Of a stretch of 64,000 nucleotides of DNA, positions 1 through 27,527 are shown piece after piece. Location: positions 8,246,001-8,310,000 of the forward strand of contig NZ_CP011125.1 in the NCBI RefSeq assembly GCF_000737325.1, written 5' to 3'. This stretch comes from Sandaracinus amylolyticus (GTDB lineage Bacteria; Myxococcota_A; Polyangia; Polyangiales; Sandaracinaceae). Under the pieces are notes generated by a model. The model made no database searches, had not been told where the DNA came from, and was given only the letters and a program-made list of their open reading frames with translations. Positions within the stretch are counted from its first letter, which is position 1; each line of letters begins with the position of its first letter. A program made the position numbers and the translations under genes.

Positions 1-451
1 CGCTCAGCGTCTCCGCGCCGCTGGTGCGCAGCGTGCGCTGCATCGCCCAGGCGAACGCCTTCACGACGCGCTGCATCACGCCGAGGTGGTAGAGCACGGT
101 CATCAGCGCGCTGAAGAAGATGATCGTCGGCAGCACGTTGAGCGCGACCGTGAAGCGCTGATCGAGGTAGTCGCCGAAGAGGAAACGGCTGCCCTCCGCG
201 GTGAAGTCGAGCAGCGCCGCGACCGCGTCGTTGAGCACCGCGAAGAGCGCGAGGCCGGTGTCGGTCTTCAGCACCAGCAACGCGAACACGAGCTGCAACG
301 CGACCCCGGCGCTCACGACGCGCCAGGGGAACGCCTTGCGGTCGGTGGAGAGCGCCCACGCGATCACGATCATGACCACGAGGCCGAGCAGCGACAGCGC
401 GCGCTGCCAGATCGGCACCGGCGCGTCGACGAGCGTTGCGAACGAGCCCAC
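1..451 (-). CDS. Concentrative nucleoside transporter (CNT/NupC family), 5' part only
   Basis: Reading the minus strand from 451 gives about 150 residues without a stop, running off the left edge. They show two hydrophobic segments, then a stretch with LPTIIFFSALMTVLYHLGV and a TSGAETLS end. These match the conserved core of NupC-type sodium- or proton-coupled nucleoside symporters of the inner membrane. The usual length is about 400 residues, so most of the transporter lies outside the window. The start is uncertain: GTG at 451 is the first good candidate, but no Shine-Dalgarno sequence precedes it and the frame stays open further upstream. The gene is divergent from the lipoprotein gene at 534. 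Family assignment is from the visible motifs; substrate is inferred. Confidence 0.8.
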   Translation of the reverse strand, partial: MGSFATLVDAPVPIWQRALSLLGLVVMIVIAWALSTDRKAFPWRVVSAGVALQLVFALLVLKTDTGLALFAVLNDAVAALLDFTAEGSRFLFGDYLDQRFTVALNVLPTIIFFSALMTVLYHLGVMQRVVKAFAWAMQRTLRTSGAETLS

Positions 452-533
452 CAGCGCGCGAGGAGACCACGGATTCGGGGAGAACTGCCAGCGCGAGCGC
501 GCGTATGCTCGTCTCGCGCGGAGGAGCACGGCA

Positions 534-2081
534 GTGAGAACACGATGGCGCGCAGCGCTCTACGGAATGATGGTCGCGGCGATGGTGGGATGCGGCGACG
601 ACGACGGCGCGTCGACGCCGGACGCGGGTGAGGGCATCGACGCCCAGGTGACGGGGGACGACGACGCGGGCGAGGCACCGCTCGACGCGCCGGCGCCCGA
701 GCCCTGCGAGTCGCCCGGCAGCACCGAGACGGTCGCGTGTGGCTTCTGCGGCAGCGTCACGCGCTTCTGCACGGTGGATCGCACGTGGGCCTACGGGGAA
801 TGCGAGCAGGACGGGAGCGCGTGCGAGCCCGGCACGACGCGCACGATGCCCTGCGGCAACTGCGGCGCGCAGACCCAGCGATGCACCGCGAGCTGCACGT
901 GGGAGGACGACGGTGCGTGCGCCGACCAGGGCGAGTGCGAGCCCGGCACGATGACCCGCGAGCGCGCCGACTGCGCGGCGAACGAGACGCGCGAGCTGAC
1001 GTGCAGCGAGGCGTGCACGTTCGAGCCGAGCTCGGAGTGCATGGCGGACGCGTGCCCGACGCCGGGCGCGATCGAGACCGTCACGTGCGGGCGGTGTGGG
1101 ACGCAGGACCGCTTCTGCAACGCGTCGCGCGTGTGGGAGTACGACCCCTGCTCGAACGAGGGCGAGTGCACGCCGGGCACGACCGGCACCGATTCGTGCG
1201 GCATGTGCGGCACGCAGACGACGCGCTGCGACACGTCGTGCAACTGGGTCGCGAGCGGCGCGTGCGGCGGCGAGGGTGAGTGCGCGCCCGGAGAGGTCAT
1301 GCGCACGTCGATCGGGTGCACGACGGCGGGGCACACGCGCCTCGTCCGGTGCAGCGCCGCGTGCGGCTACACCGAGGAGCTCGAGGCGTGCAGGGCGTCG
1401 ATCCCGGTCGACGTGCTCTTCCTCGTGGACGCGACGGGCTCGCATCACTCGGGGTTCCAGGCCGAGCGCGCCGAGTTCGTCGCGCGCTGCGTCGACCCGC
1501 TGCTCGCGCTGACCGACGCGCACGTGGGGCTCGCGTATTACGGCGATCACGGCACGTCGCCCCGCACGTTCATCGGCGCGGTCGAGCTCGGAGCGTCGAC
1601 ACGCACCGCGATCGACACGAGCATCTCGACGCAGGTCTCGTTCGGTGGCGCCGACGACGCGACGATGGAGGCGCTGCACATCGTGACCGGCGGCGCGCCG
1701 CAGACGGGCGCGACCCCGTTCACGTGCTTGAGCGGGCGCGTCGCGGGCGGATGCTGGCGGAGCGGCGCGGAGCGCGTGGTCGTCATGATCACCGACGAGA
1801 ACGCGCGCGGCGGGCCCGATCCCGCGTCCACCGGGCTCTGGAACGCGTGGCCCACCGGCCCGACCTGGACGACCGTTCGGCCGCGTCTCACGACCGACGG
1901 CACGACGCTCCTCGTGGTGCTCGACGACAGCTTCTTCCCGGCGGACGCGCGCTCCCAGTACGAGGAGATGGTGCGCGACCTCGGTCAGGCCGTGACCGAC
2001 GTCCACGTCGAGGAGACGACCGGCATCCGCACCGCGTGCGACGCGGTGGTCTCGCGCGTGCGCGAGATCGCCGGCCCCTGA
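534..2081 (+). CDS. Cys-rich lipoprotein with von Willebrand factor A-like domain
   Basis: The protein has 515 residues. GTG 534 was chosen because GGAGGAGC lies 8 bases upstream and the N-terminus is then a short lipoprotein signal (two Arg, hydrophobic run, VGCG lipobox near residue 20). An acidic Asp-rich linker follows. Residues about 65-285 contain four copies of a C-G-x-C-G-x(4)-R-x-C unit alternating with other Cys-rich units, probably disulfide-bonded outside the cytoplasm. From about residue 291 there is a vWA-like domain with a DATGS MIDAS-type motif and a ITDENARG segment. Such proteins are common surface lipoproteins of myxobacteria, likely binding a ligand or metal. The function is unknown. 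It ends at a strong hairpin shared with the convergent vWA gene. Confidence 0.8.
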   Translation: MRTRWRAALYGMMVAAMVGCGDDDGASTPDAGEGIDAQVTGDDDAGEAPLDAPAPEPCESPGSTETVACGFCGSVTRFCTVDRTWAYGECEQDGSACEPGTTRTMPCGNCGAQTQRCTASCTWEDDGACADQGECEPGTMTRERADCAANETRELTCSEACTFEPSSECMADACPTPGAIETVTCGRCGTQDRFCNASRVWEYDPCSNEGECTPGTTGTDSCGMCGTQTTRCDTSCNWVASGACGGEGECAPGEVMRTSIGCTTAGHTRLVRCSAACGYTEELEACRASIPVDVLFLVDATGSHHSGFQAERAEFVARCVDPLLALTDAHVGLAYYGDHGTSPRTFIGAVELGASTRTAIDTSISTQVSFGGADDATMEALHIVTGGAPQTGATPFTCLSGRVAGGCWRSGAERVVVMITDENARGGPDPASTGLWNAWPTGPTWTTVRPRLTTDGTTLLVVLDDSFFPADARSQYEEMVRDLGQAVTDVHVEETTGIRTACDAVVSRVREIAGP

Positions 2082-23905: not shown

Positions 23906-24760
23906 TCACGCCGGGAGCACGGAGATGTCGAGCGCGCGGAGCCGCTCGGGATCCGCGATCACCTCGACCGACGTGATGCGATCGTGCGCGAACGTGAACG
24001 TCAGCACGCCGCGCAGCACGCCGCGCGGCGCCACGACGATGCCCACCGCGCCGTCGACCACCGCGAGCGTCCCGTGCCGGGCCCGCGCCTGCGAGGCACG
24101 CCGCGCGACCACCTCCGCGCCGCGCGCCTCGGTCTCCGCCCCCGCCGGGACCGCCGCGCGATCCGCGCGCAGCACGACGTCGGGATCGAGCACCGCGAGG
24201 AGCGCGTCGATGCTCCCTCCGCGCGCCGCCGCGACGAACGCCTCGACCACCGCGCGCTGCCGCGCGATCGCCGCGTCGTCCGGCCTCGGGGCGCCCTGCA
24301 CGCGCCGGCGCGCGCGGCTCGCGAGCTGTCGCGCCGCGACCTCCGAGCGATCGACGATGCGCGCGATCTCGTCGAACGAGACGTCGAAGAGATCGTGGAG
24401 CACGAACGCGACGCGCTCCGCCGGCGGCAGCGTCTCGAGCACGATGAGCAGCGCGACCCCGACCGAGTCGGCGAGCGCGAGCTCGGCCTCGGGATCGCCC
24501 TCACCGACGCGCTCGGCGTGTCCATCGAGCGCGTCCTCGCGGCGCGACTTCCGCGAGCGGAGCATGTCGAGGCACACCCGCGCGACCACGGTCGTCAGCC
24601 ACCCGCGCAGGTTCTCGACCTCGCTCGTGTCCGCGCGGCTCACCCGGATCCACGCCTCCTGCACCGCGTCGTCGGCCTCGCTCGCCGATCCGAGCATCCG
24701 ATACGCGACCGCGCGCAGGTGATCACGATCCGCGAGCCATCGCTCCGCCAGCTGTTCCAT
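23906..24760 (-). CDS. ECF41-type RNA polymerase sigma factor with SnoaL-like C-terminus
   Basis: 284 residues. ATG 24760 is used because GAGGAG lies 9 bases upstream and an ECF41-type promoter sits further upstream; a start at 24817 would fall inside that promoter. Sigma region 2 (HLRAVAYRMLGSASEADDAVQEAWIRVSR) and region 4 (ETLPPAERVAFVLHDLFDVSFDEIARIVDRSEVAARQLASRARRRV) are clear. Residues about 175-284 are the fused NTF2/SnoaL-like regulatory domain ending in IADPERL, the position of the NPDKL-type motif that controls ECF41 activity. No anti-sigma gene is expected in this group. Confidence 0.92.
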   Translation of the reverse strand: MEQLAERWLADRDHLRAVAYRMLGSASEADDAVQEAWIRVSRADTSEVENLRGWLTTVVARVCLDMLRSRKSRREDALDGHAERVGEGDPEAELALADSVGVALLIVLETLPPAERVAFVLHDLFDVSFDEIARIVDRSEVAARQLASRARRRVQGAPRPDDAAIARQRAVVEAFVAAARGGSIDALLAVLDPDVVLRADRAAVPAGAETEARGAEVVARRASQARARHGTLAVVDGAVGIVVAPRGVLRGVLTFTFAHDRITSVEVIADPERLRALDISVLPA

Positions 24761-24784
24761 CCCGTCGTTCTCCTCGATCTCGAT

Positions 24785-24838
24785 GACGGATGGAACGACG
24801 TGCACGTGACCGGTCACATCCGCGCTCCGCCATCCGTC
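24785..24838. promoter_or_regulatory. Divergent ECF41-type promoters
   Basis: Plus strand: GGTCACA at 24812-24818, 16 bases, CGTC at 24835-24838, leading to the carboxymuconolactone-decarboxylase-like gene. Minus strand: GGTCACG (24811-24805), again 16 bases, CGTC (24788-24785), leading to the sigma gene. Known ECF41 promoters resemble TGTCACA-N16-CGTC. The two -35 elements share the palindrome GTGACCGGTCAC (24806-24817). Autoregulation plus control of the partner gene is inferred. Confidence 0.75.
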
Positions 24839-24858
24839 AGACGATCAGGAGGTTCGAG

Positions 24859-25326
24859 ATGACGATGCGAGCACGGATGAAGCACCCCGCGATGATGGTC
24901 CCCGACGCGATGCAGGCGCTCCAGGCGCTCGGCGCCGCGATCGAGAGAGCAGGTGTGCCCCGTCGCACCCTGGAGCTCGTGAACCTGCGCGCGAGCCAGA
25001 TCAACGGCTGCAGCTTCTGCGTGGAGATGCACTCGCGCGCGCTGAAGCGCAGCGAGGAGAAGGACGAGCGCATCTTCGCGGTCGCGGCGTGGCGCGAGTC
25101 GCCGCACTTCACGCCGGCCGAGCGCGCCGCGCTCGCGCTCACCGAGGCGATCACGCGCGTCGCCGATCGCGCCGACCCGGTGCCCGACGAGCTCTGGCGC
25201 GAGGTCACGCACCACTTCGACGAGCCCGCGCTCGCCGCGCTCGTCCTCGGGATCTCGAACGTGAACACCTGGAACCGCCTCAACGTCGCGACGCGGCAGA
25301 TCGCGGGATCGATCCGCACCGACTGA
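24859..25326 (+). CDS. Carboxymuconolactone decarboxylase/AhpD-family protein
   Basis: 155 residues. ATG 24859 is preceded by AGGAGG at a spacing of 6. It contains the AhpD-like redox motif NGCSFCVEMHSRALK (CxxC plus His, about residues 53-60) and the conserved WRESPHFTPAERAALALTEAITRV segment. Members act as alkylhydroperoxidase-like thiol enzymes. Divergent pairing with an ECF41 sigma factor is a known association for this group, and a matching promoter precedes the gene. Confidence 0.9.
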   Translation: MTMRARMKHPAMMVPDAMQALQALGAAIERAGVPRRTLELVNLRASQINGCSFCVEMHSRALKRSEEKDERIFAVAAWRESPHFTPAERAALALTEAITRVADRADPVPDELWREVTHHFDEPALAALVLGISNVNTWNRLNVATRQIAGSIRTD

Positions 25327-25453: not shown

Positions 25454-25963
25454 ATGACGACGACGATCACGATCCCCGAGCCCGAGACGAACGACCTCGC
25501 GATCGAGCGACTCCTGACGCGCCGCGGATGGGCGCTCGATCTCGCGTGGGTCGGCGGCGCGAGCGCGCTCGCGGTCGCCACGATGCTCGGCGCGAGCGCG
25601 CTCTTCGCGCTCGCGGTCGCGGCGACCAGCGCGCTGATCGGCGCAGCGATCGGCGCGGGCGCGCCGTGGCTCCTCTCGCGCCGCGTGCGGCGTCTCCCGG
25701 TGCTCGTGCTGCTCGGCGCGGGCGCGGGGCTCGGCGCGAACTGGGGCGCGCTCAGCGCCGCGAGCGTCGCGCTCGCGAGCGACGGAGGGCTCGGCTGGGT
25801 CCGCGCCGCGGAGCTCGGTGGGACTGCCGGCCTGCTCGTGATGGGCCTCTTCTGGCTGCCCGCCGCGCTGCTCCGCGCGAGCGGCCGCTCGACACGCCTC
25901 GCGCGCATCGCCGCGCTCGCACTGTCTCCCGTGATCGCCGGGTACCTACTCGTCGCGCTCTGA
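25454..25963 (+). CDS. Hypothetical inner-membrane protein
   Basis: 169 residues. ATG 25454 follows GGAGGAG by about 6 bases. After a short cytoplasmic N-terminus there are five hydrophobic segments rich in Ala, Gly and Leu, with Arg-rich loops (SRRVRRLPVL). No family is recognised. The last 18 bases overlap the convergent TetR gene. Confidence 0.7.
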   Translation: MTTTITIPEPETNDLAIERLLTRRGWALDLAWVGGASALAVATMLGASALFALAVAATSALIGAAIGAGAPWLLSRRVRRLPVLVLLGAGAGLGANWGALSAASVALASDGGLGWVRAAELGGTAGLLVMGLFWLPAALLRASGRSTRLARIAALALSPVIAGYLLVAL

Positions 25964-26686
25964 GCCCGAGTGCGCGAGCCCGCGCGCGATCGGCAGCGCA
26001 TCCGTCACGAGCTCTCCGAGCTTCTCGCGGAACCACCGATCGCGCTCCGCGCTCGGCTTCTTCGAGAGGCTCTCCCAGAGCACCGTGCGCGAGAAGCTGT
26101 ACCCGAGCGCCGCCGAGAACACGAGCAGCATCCCGAACTCGATGTCCTCGCGCGCCGGCACACGATCCTCGCCGAGCTGCGCGCGCACCCGCGCCTCGAT
26201 CGCGTCCGCGACGAAGCGCATGCCCTGATCGCGACGCGGGAAGAAGTCCTCGCTGTCCATGCGCCCGCTGAGGATCGCCCACGCGAGCAGCCGCCCCGAG
26301 AGCGGATGCGCGAGCTGCTCGAAGCACATCTCGACCCACTCCGCCGGCCCCGCGTGCGCGACGTCCGCGATGCGCTGCAGCGTCTCGACACGCGTCTCGA
26401 GCATGTGATCGCGCAGCGCGGCCTCGACCAGCGCGTCGTAGGTGCCGAAGTAGTGCGAGACGAGCGCGTGGCTCACCCCCGCCGCCTTCGCGACCTCCTT
26501 GAGCCCGACCGCGTCGGGGCCGTGCTGCGCGAGCAGCGTCTTCGTCGCATCGAGGATCAGCCGGCGCGCCTCCTCGGGGCTCCGACGACGGCGCGTGCTG
26601 CGCGCTTCGGGCGCGGCTTTCTTCTCGGAGGAGGCGGACGGTGCCGCGGCGCGAGACGTTCGCCCGCGGGCAGGGGTACGAGCCAT
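25946..26686 (-). CDS. TetR-family transcriptional regulator
   Basis: 246 residues from ATG 26686. A Lys/Arg/Ala-rich tail of about 35 residues precedes the helix-turn-helix (EEARRLILDATKTLLAQHGPDAVGLKEVAKAAGVSHALVSHYFGTYDALVEAAL, about 37-90). The C-terminal ligand domain is helical. It is divergent from the Coq4-like gene, and a perfect 16-bp palindrome lies inside that gene's promoter, so it likely represses the Coq4-like gene. The ligand is unknown. Confidence 0.9.
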   Translation of the reverse strand: MARTPARGRTSRAAAPSASSEKKAAPEARSTRRRRSPEEARRLILDATKTLLAQHGPDAVGLKEVAKAAGVSHALVSHYFGTYDALVEAALRDHMLETRVETLQRIADVAHAGPAEWVEMCFEQLAHPLSGRLLAWAILSGRMDSEDFFPRRDQGMRFVADAIEARVRAQLGEDRVPAREDIEFGMLLVFSAALGYSFSRTVLWESLSKKPSAERDRWFREKLGELVTDALPIARGLAHSGSERDE

Positions 26687-26720
26687 CGCCGCGAAGATAG
26701 CCCGGGGCGTATTGGCACGC

Positions 26721-26760
26721 TTGACAAGAGAGCGCATCCGCCTATTGTCAGATCTGACAA
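26721..26760 (+). promoter_or_regulatory. Sigma-70-like promoter overlapped by a perfect TetR-type palindrome
   Basis: TTGACA at 26721-26726, 16 bases, TATTGT at 26743-26748. The -10 element overlaps TTGTCAGATCTGACAA (26745-26760), an uninterrupted 8+8 palindrome ending 11 bases before the Coq4-like ATG. A bound dimer would block transcription start, consistent with repression by the divergent TetR protein. Confidence 0.7.
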
Positions 26761-26771
26761 CAGGAGCGCCC

Positions 26772-27527
26772 ATGCACGCGACCCAGCACGCGACGCCGTC
26801 GACCGAACGTCCCCGCAGCGCGCCCGCCGCGAAGCCCGCGCCCCCGGAAGATCCGCGAGAGCGCGAGGCCGCGCGCATCGCCCTCGAGGGCACGCCGCTC
26901 CAGCGCACCGCGATGGCGTACCGCGCGCTGCGCGCGCTGATCGCGGATCCCGACGACACCAAGCAGGTCTTCTACGTCGGCCTGCTCGTCAACCGCGGCA
27001 CGTACCCCACGTTCCTCGCGCGCTTCACCACCGACGACGAGGGCGCGCGCCTGCTCCGCGAGCGACCCGCGATCGATCGCTCGACGGTCGATTACGACGC
27101 GCTGCGCGCCATGCCCGCGAGCACGCTCGGCGGCGCGTACGTGCGCTTCCTCGACGCGAACGGGCTCGACCCCGACCTCTTCCAGTCGCCGCCCGGCCTG
27201 CCCGAGGTGCCCTCGTACATCGCGCAGCGCATGCGCCAGGTGCACGACCTCTGGCACGTGCTCACGGGCTACGACAGCGACGTCGCCGGCGAGGTCGCGC
27301 TGCAGGCCTTCACGTGGGGCAACACCGGGATGGCGAGCGCGGCCGCGGTCACGCTCGCCGCGGGCGTGCGCTTCTCGGTCACCGATCCGCGCATCGTGCG
27401 CATGGCCGCCGCGGGCTATCGCGACGGGCGTCGCGCGAAGTTCCTCGCGCCGATCCGCATCGAGGATCACTTCGCGCGCGAGCTCGACGAGCTGCGCGCC
27501 GAGTGGGGCATCCGCGCCGTGCGCTGA
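26772..27527 (+). CDS. Coq4-family protein
   Basis: 251 residues; the ATG follows CAGGAG by about 6 bases. The segment RMRQVHDLWHVLTGYDSDVAGEVALQAFTW carries the HDxxH-x(10)-E zinc motif of Coq4, which in mitochondria removes the C1 carboxylate during ubiquinone synthesis. Bacterial homologues are sometimes linked to quinone or terpenoid pathways, but the role here is inferred only. An Ala/Pro-rich N-terminal 35 residues are probably disordered. Expression is likely controlled by the divergent TetR regulator. Confidence 0.85.
   Translation: MHATQHATPSTERPRSAPAAKPAPPEDPREREAARIALEGTPLQRTAMAYRALRALIADPDDTKQVFYVGLLVNRGTYPTFLARFTTDDEGARLLRERPAIDRSTVDYDALRAMPASTLGGAYVRFLDANGLDPDLFQSPPGLPEVPSYIAQRMRQVHDLWHVLTGYDSDVAGEVALQAFTWGNTGMASAAAVTLAAGVRFSVTDPRIVRMAAAGYRDGRRAKFLAPIRIEDHFARELDELRAEWGIRAVR

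Follow-up and report, generated by a model that had tools for sequence, protein, structure and literature searches.

How is transcription initiated in the 98-bp gap (positions 24761–24858) between two divergent genes of Sandaracinus amylolyticus, and could a single sigma factor serve both directions? The gap lies in the 64-kb window, our term for the whole stretch of DNA that was analyzed, between a gene for an ECF41-like sigma factor on the minus strand (23906–24760) and a gene for a carboxymuconolactone decarboxylase (CMD)/AhpD-like partner with a CSFC (CxxC) motif on the plus strand (24859–25326). A preliminary description of this DNA had claimed that GGTCAC(A/G)-N16-CGTC occurs on both strands around GTGACCGGTCAC. 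Both sites are exact, and they are the only two matches to GGTCACN-N16-CGTC in the window. They point outward from GTGACCGGTCAC and are mirror images around 24811/24812. The predicted sigma-gene promoter (24785–24811, minus strand; GGTCACGTGCACGTCGTTCCATCCGTC) has a −35 element, GGTCACG, at 24811–24805 and a −10 element, CGTC, at 24788–24785; the predicted CMD-gene promoter (24812–24838, plus strand; GGTCACATCCGCGCTCCGCCATCCGTC) has GGTCACA at 24812–24818 and CGTC at 24835–24838, and the spacer is 16 bp in each. The inverted repeat that holds both promoters measures 54 bp, and the two −35 elements at its middle make the 12-bp palindrome GTGACCGGTCAC (24806–24817), whose center reads CCGG because two CGGTCAC boxes abut. 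The two promoters had also been said to overlap at their −35 ends, which needs qualification: the GGTCAC hexamers abut at 24811/24812, and a 2-bp overlap arises only when the −35 element is taken to include the C that precedes GGTCAC. This C is common in the branch of sigma factors that resemble the window protein (39 of 52 promoters).

The distances to the two genes agree with those expected in the preliminary description. Measured from the final C of CGTC, the start codon is 24 nt away on the sigma side and 20 nt away on the CMD side, and each gene has a Shine–Dalgarno sequence (GAGGAGAA, 24768–24775, minus strand, for the sigma gene; AGGAGG, 24847–24852, plus strand, for the CMD gene). Starts mapped in B. 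licheniformis and R. sphaeroides give leaders of 22–23 nt (PMC3426412), and the leaders at the sigma/CMD locus would be similar to these and somewhat shorter. The longest sigma open reading frame begins at a GTG at 24817 and crosses the promoter; we regard the ATG at 24760 as the better predicted start because GAGGAGAA precedes it and homologues begin there.

Such a pair is not readily attributed to chance. With a first-order model of the window, 3.35e-6 matches to GGTCACN-N16-CGTC are expected per position and strand, shuffled windows contain an average of 0.45 matches, and the chance of finding both sites in the 98-bp gap, reading into both genes, is ~5.8e-8 under the first-order model. The genome-wide search suggested in the preliminary description returned 127 matches compared with ~69 expected, and a regulon defined by GGTCACN-N16-CGTC was rejected as too unspecific. 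The longer pattern GGTCAC-N14-ATCCGTC, with an expectation of 0.7 per genome, has two occurrences in the S. amylolyticus genome and two in that of a second species of the genus, in both ~10-Mb genomes only at the sigma/CMD locus. Given that this pattern was derived from the two window sites, its count in the window is no independent test, and its count in the congener is one.

The whole sigma/promoter/CMD arrangement is kept in this second species (locus L195), whose sigma factor is ~80% identical. Both −35 elements, both −10 elements (GATGACGGAT and CCATCCGTCAGACGA), and the CMD Shine–Dalgarno sequence are intact in the alignment, and the differences lie mostly in the spacers and the sigma leader. 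This conservation bears on the proposal that only the CMD promoter functions and that the copy facing the sigma gene is vestigial or too weakly read to matter. The published ECF41 targets are COE genes or operons, and the minus-strand copy in the window has G in place of the consensus A at the seventh −35 position, both of which would suit the proposal; however, the second species retains the sigma-side −35 and −10 elements and has A as the seventh base, and among the 55 divergent <ECF< >COE> loci of Wecke et al. (2012; PMC3426412) the motif was found on the sigma side in 36 and on the COE side in 41. We consider a CMD-only promoter improbable and retain the reading with two functional promoters.

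The COE gene adjoining the sigma gene is the divergent CMD gene itself, whose product matches the Pfam CMD family (79 bits) and the AhpD core domain (TIGR00778), with 7xw1, PA0269, and Atu0492 as PDB matches. Downstream of it, positions 25454–25963 encode a small membrane-type protein without a Pfam or NCBIfam match, and a similar small open reading frame lies beside the congener CMD gene (L195 ~384–886, minus strand).

The sigma factor has a σ2–σ4 core followed by a C-terminal SnoaL/NTF2-like extension of ~100 residues, as seen from Pfam, the alignment with SigJ, and AF2/Foldseek. Its Pfam matches are Sigma70_r2 and r4_2, and the Pfam search gave no match in the tail, SnoaL included. The best PDB match by sequence is SigJ (5xe7; E 5e-37, residues 9–265). 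An AF2 model (pLDDT 88, pTM 0.54) has a helix-and-sheet tail and retrieves SigJ (the best PDB fold match), SigG1, and ketosteroid-isomerase-fold proteins in Foldseek, with low overall TM-scores that probably result from differing domain placement. The best NCBIfam model is that of the SigJ subfamily, with a score below the cut-off. By eye, no anti-sigma gene is obvious among the open reading frames adjoining the sigma gene.

The preliminary description had called the pair mirror-image ECF41 promoters. Their position, the Shine–Dalgarno sequences, the conservation in a second species, and the published consensus and divergent layout agree with this assignment; strict ECF41 membership does not stand, given that three motifs are missing from the sigma factor: WLPEP, which belongs in the linker, and two that canonical members commonly have. 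WLPEP and NPDKL are cited as ECF41 signatures in the literature, and a W[LMI]P motif is absent from both the window and congener sigma factors. NPDKL, a named conserved motif of the ECF41 extension (PMC7730460), and DGGG, a motif seen in the canonical ECF41 members that were compared, are absent from the window protein, which has DPERL at the NPDKL position. Related sigma factors (48–64% identical and mainly actinobacterial) are mostly without WLPEP, and the promoters of window-like sigma factors follow CGGTCAC(A/C)T-N-(A/G)TNCGTC (52 promoters), compared with TGTCACA...CGTC for WLPEP sigma factors (82 promoters). Relative to TGTCACA-N16-CGTC, the window promoters have the same spacing and the same −10 element, and their first −35 base is G, which is typical of the branch lacking WLPEP. 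Judged by its sequence, the sigma factor is ECF41-like but not canonical ECF41 and falls in a side branch that has a distinct promoter form, a promoter code that separates this branch from other ECF41-like sigma factors.

We think it probable that the ECF41-like sigma factor encoded beside the back-to-back promoters reads both of them, controls its own expression in this way, and serves two mutually exclusive directions. Its C-terminal extension would keep the sigma factor inactive, as is the case for other ECF41 proteins (PMC8999054); once released, the sigma factor would send polymerase leftward into its own gene, which would be positive autoregulation, or rightward into the CMD/AhpD-like gene. 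Because the −35 boxes abut, the two holoenzymes would occupy the same DNA with their upstream ends, and only one could be bound at a time; polymerases spanning −40 to +20 would share approximately positions 24803–24821, and their binding would be exclusive. At full activation, both genes would share a common initiation flux. Competition between the two promoters, suspected in the preliminary description, is plausible from this geometry. Among five bidirectional promoters studied in E. coli, competition required strong activation of one direction (PMC12825309), so competition at this locus would matter at full induction, where sigma synthesis would be limited relative to that of the enzyme, and could be negligible when promoter occupancy is low. 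In B. licheniformis and R. sphaeroides, a COE gene or operon is the sole ECF41 target that was detected (PMC3426412), so the studies consulted offer no experimental precedent for autoregulation from a separate divergent promoter.

The paired arrangement recurs in other genomes, including those of distant bacteria. GTDB genomes were scanned for GACG-N17-GTGAC-N(0-30)-GTCAC-N17-CGTC, which yielded at least 120 stretches, and searches by order and phylum added more; weaker pairs were missed because the −10 element and the spacer were fixed exactly. Together these gave at least 213 unique mirror matches, at least 90 of which lie beside an ECF41-like sigma gene with a promoter reading into it (the window site and the congener are included, and nearly all others are from other genomes). 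The matches away from sigma genes, at least 123, appear to be mostly chance occurrences in coding DNA, and the 123 listed served as the control set. Prevalence, for which only the searches by order and phylum were used, was 40 of 200 genomes in Streptosporangiales (0 for a reversed control pattern), 25 of 249 in the order of Kutzneria (1 for the reversed control), and 1 of 250 in Burkholderiales, a result that is not informative. No mirror pair was found at the paralogues with WLPEP in the S. amylolyticus genome. At a close homologue ~59% identical (L153:1425–1484) and at a paralogue in the same genome whose sigma factor is 56% identical (L010:2347–2457), both motifs occur but face each other, so that their transcripts would overlap; the back-to-back arrangement is therefore not fixed in the family.

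The partner genes at these loci are diverse. In six Burkholderiales loci (L040, L087, L094, L114, L123, and L140), the partner resembles a subunit of the ClpP protease (e.g., L094:1535–2274; the L094 partner matches Pfam CLP_protease), and the promoters are often separated by an A/T tract, for instance AAAAATATTTT, which may be a shared UP element. The divergent partner of window-like sigma factors at L048, L060, L242, L248, L254, and L280 probably has a serine hydrolase domain (Pfam Beta-lactamase); this domain was matched in 6 of 45 partners and is outside the carboxymuconolactone/oxidoreductase/epimerase set. One Nonomuraea genome carries two different mirror ECF41-like loci ~4 kb apart (L051:2649–2712 and L051:6918–6983).

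The distance between the GTGAC and GTCAC half-sites is 1–3, 11–15, or 22–26 bp in 74 of the 90 listed sigma-linked pairs, in bins that were set after seeing the data and span 13 of the 31 possible spacing values. The shortest class includes the window (2 bp), its congener, Kutzneria (2 bp), and Antrihabitans (3 bp). A further family with spacings of 35–37 bp is located beside sigma genes in Streptosporangiales. In loci L293–L319 of this order (e.g., L294:1501–1588), where the 35–37-bp pair is conserved, extra GTGAC/GTCAC half-sites lie between the promoters, as if filling the space.

These spacings allow another interpretation of GTGACCGGTCAC to be weighed, namely that it serves chiefly as an operator for a dimeric regulator, either CRP/FNR-like (TGTGA-N4-TCACA) or TetR-type, and that its likeness to promoters is secondary. 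Operators typically take the form of a perfect inverted repeat between divergent genes, as the 12-bp repeat here does, and an open reading frame that looks TetR-like, judged by look alone, lies ~600 bp beyond the CMD gene (25946–26962, minus strand). In related loci, however, the half-sites shift to 12–14 and 22–26 bp, each keeping its 16-bp distance to CGTC, and a dimer operator would not tolerate such shifts; furthermore, none of the 90 listed sigma-linked pairs has the 4-bp gap that a classical CRP site (TGTGA-N6-TCACA) would have. We reject a CRP/FNR-type operator as a poor fit to the half-site spacing in related loci, and we judge the operator interpretation as a whole very unlikely compared with a pair of abutting −35 elements.

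The clusters suggest that the orientation of the promoters around the helix matters, given the mainly whole-turn spacings in related loci. For the 90 listed sigma-linked pairs, R at 10.5 bp is 0.47, compared with 0.07 for the 123 other listed matches. When the sites were dereplicated by sigma identity among the listed pairs, collapsing at 75% (n = 57) gave p ~2e-4 for a fixed 10.5-bp period and 0.004 with the period free, and collapsing at 65% (n = 48) gave 0.0035 and 0.03, respectively; at 55% (n = 21 clusters), p was 0.08 at the fixed 10.5-bp period and not significant. This weakening as relatives are collapsed, together with a fitted period that drifts between 10.5 and 12, is what would be expected if the clusters reflect common ancestry, with a few successful lineages near 2, 13, and 24 bp, in place of helical phasing. 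Ancestry would not readily account for the presence of all three clusters in both WLPEP and WLPEP-less sigma factors, for the absence of phase in mirror matches away from sigma genes, or for relatives that differ by one turn and rarely by half a turn: in 29 listed comparisons of relatives, the difference in spacing is 1–4 bp in 16, 9–13 bp in 10, and 5–8 bp in 1, and two sigma factors that are 89% identical have spacings of 14 and 3 bp. We view ancestry alone as a rather unlikely explanation, though one to be taken seriously, and consider helical phasing likely but not proven. Whether the phase is under selection, such that −35 elements whole turns apart (~2, 13, 24, and possibly 35 bp) place the polymerases or their alpha C-terminal domains on a fixed face, is close to an even question on which we lean slightly toward doubt.

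If phasing is real, sigma and effector expression would be coupled by polymerase contact or exclusion, without a regulator protein, and the 2-bp pair of the window would be the tightest and strictly exclusive form. A two-gene stress switch would then balance its regulator and effector by polymerase geometry alone, and the loci would provide a natural spacing series (~1, 2, and 3 turns) in many genomes for testing competition and cooperation between polymerases.

Among the systems available for comparison, bidirectional promoters of E. coli reportedly share a pseudo-symmetric −10 element for sigma70, whereas the window pair would be two complete ECF promoters placed back to back at the −35 elements. 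In the E. coli promoters, symmetry permits two mutually excluding orientations of polymerase (PMC12825309), and the window pair is known from its geometry only. M. tuberculosis SigJ (5xe7) and S. tsukubaensis SigG1 (7qh5), the best sequence and fold matches, share the SnoaL-type tail with the window sigma factor, which is 31% and 22% identical to them, respectively, over the fold alignments; SigG1 is an ECF56 protein with an anti-sigma partner, and none was identified beside the window sigma gene. ECF56, ECF205, ECF294, and ECF295, compared by this feature only, likewise have a SnoaL-like C-terminal extension outside canonical ECF41 (PMC8999054). The closest system is ECF41/COE (PMC3426412), in which the SnoaL-like sigma extension, the CxxC CMD partner, the N16-CGTC promoter, and the divergent motif pairs are as in the window; the window differs in a sigma factor without WLPEP, DGGG, and NPDKL, in its GGTCAC −35 element, and in −35 elements that abut in a palindrome. 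Already known (Wecke et al. 2012) are the ECF41 promoter TGTCACA-N16-CGTC, whose starts have been mapped, and a twin promoter that is sigma-dependent on each side of a divergent ECF41/partner pair; the main text of that study does not discuss the geometry or spacing between paired ECF41 promoters. New here are the side-branch sigma factor with its CGGTCAC promoter form and the spacing clusters of mirror pairs.
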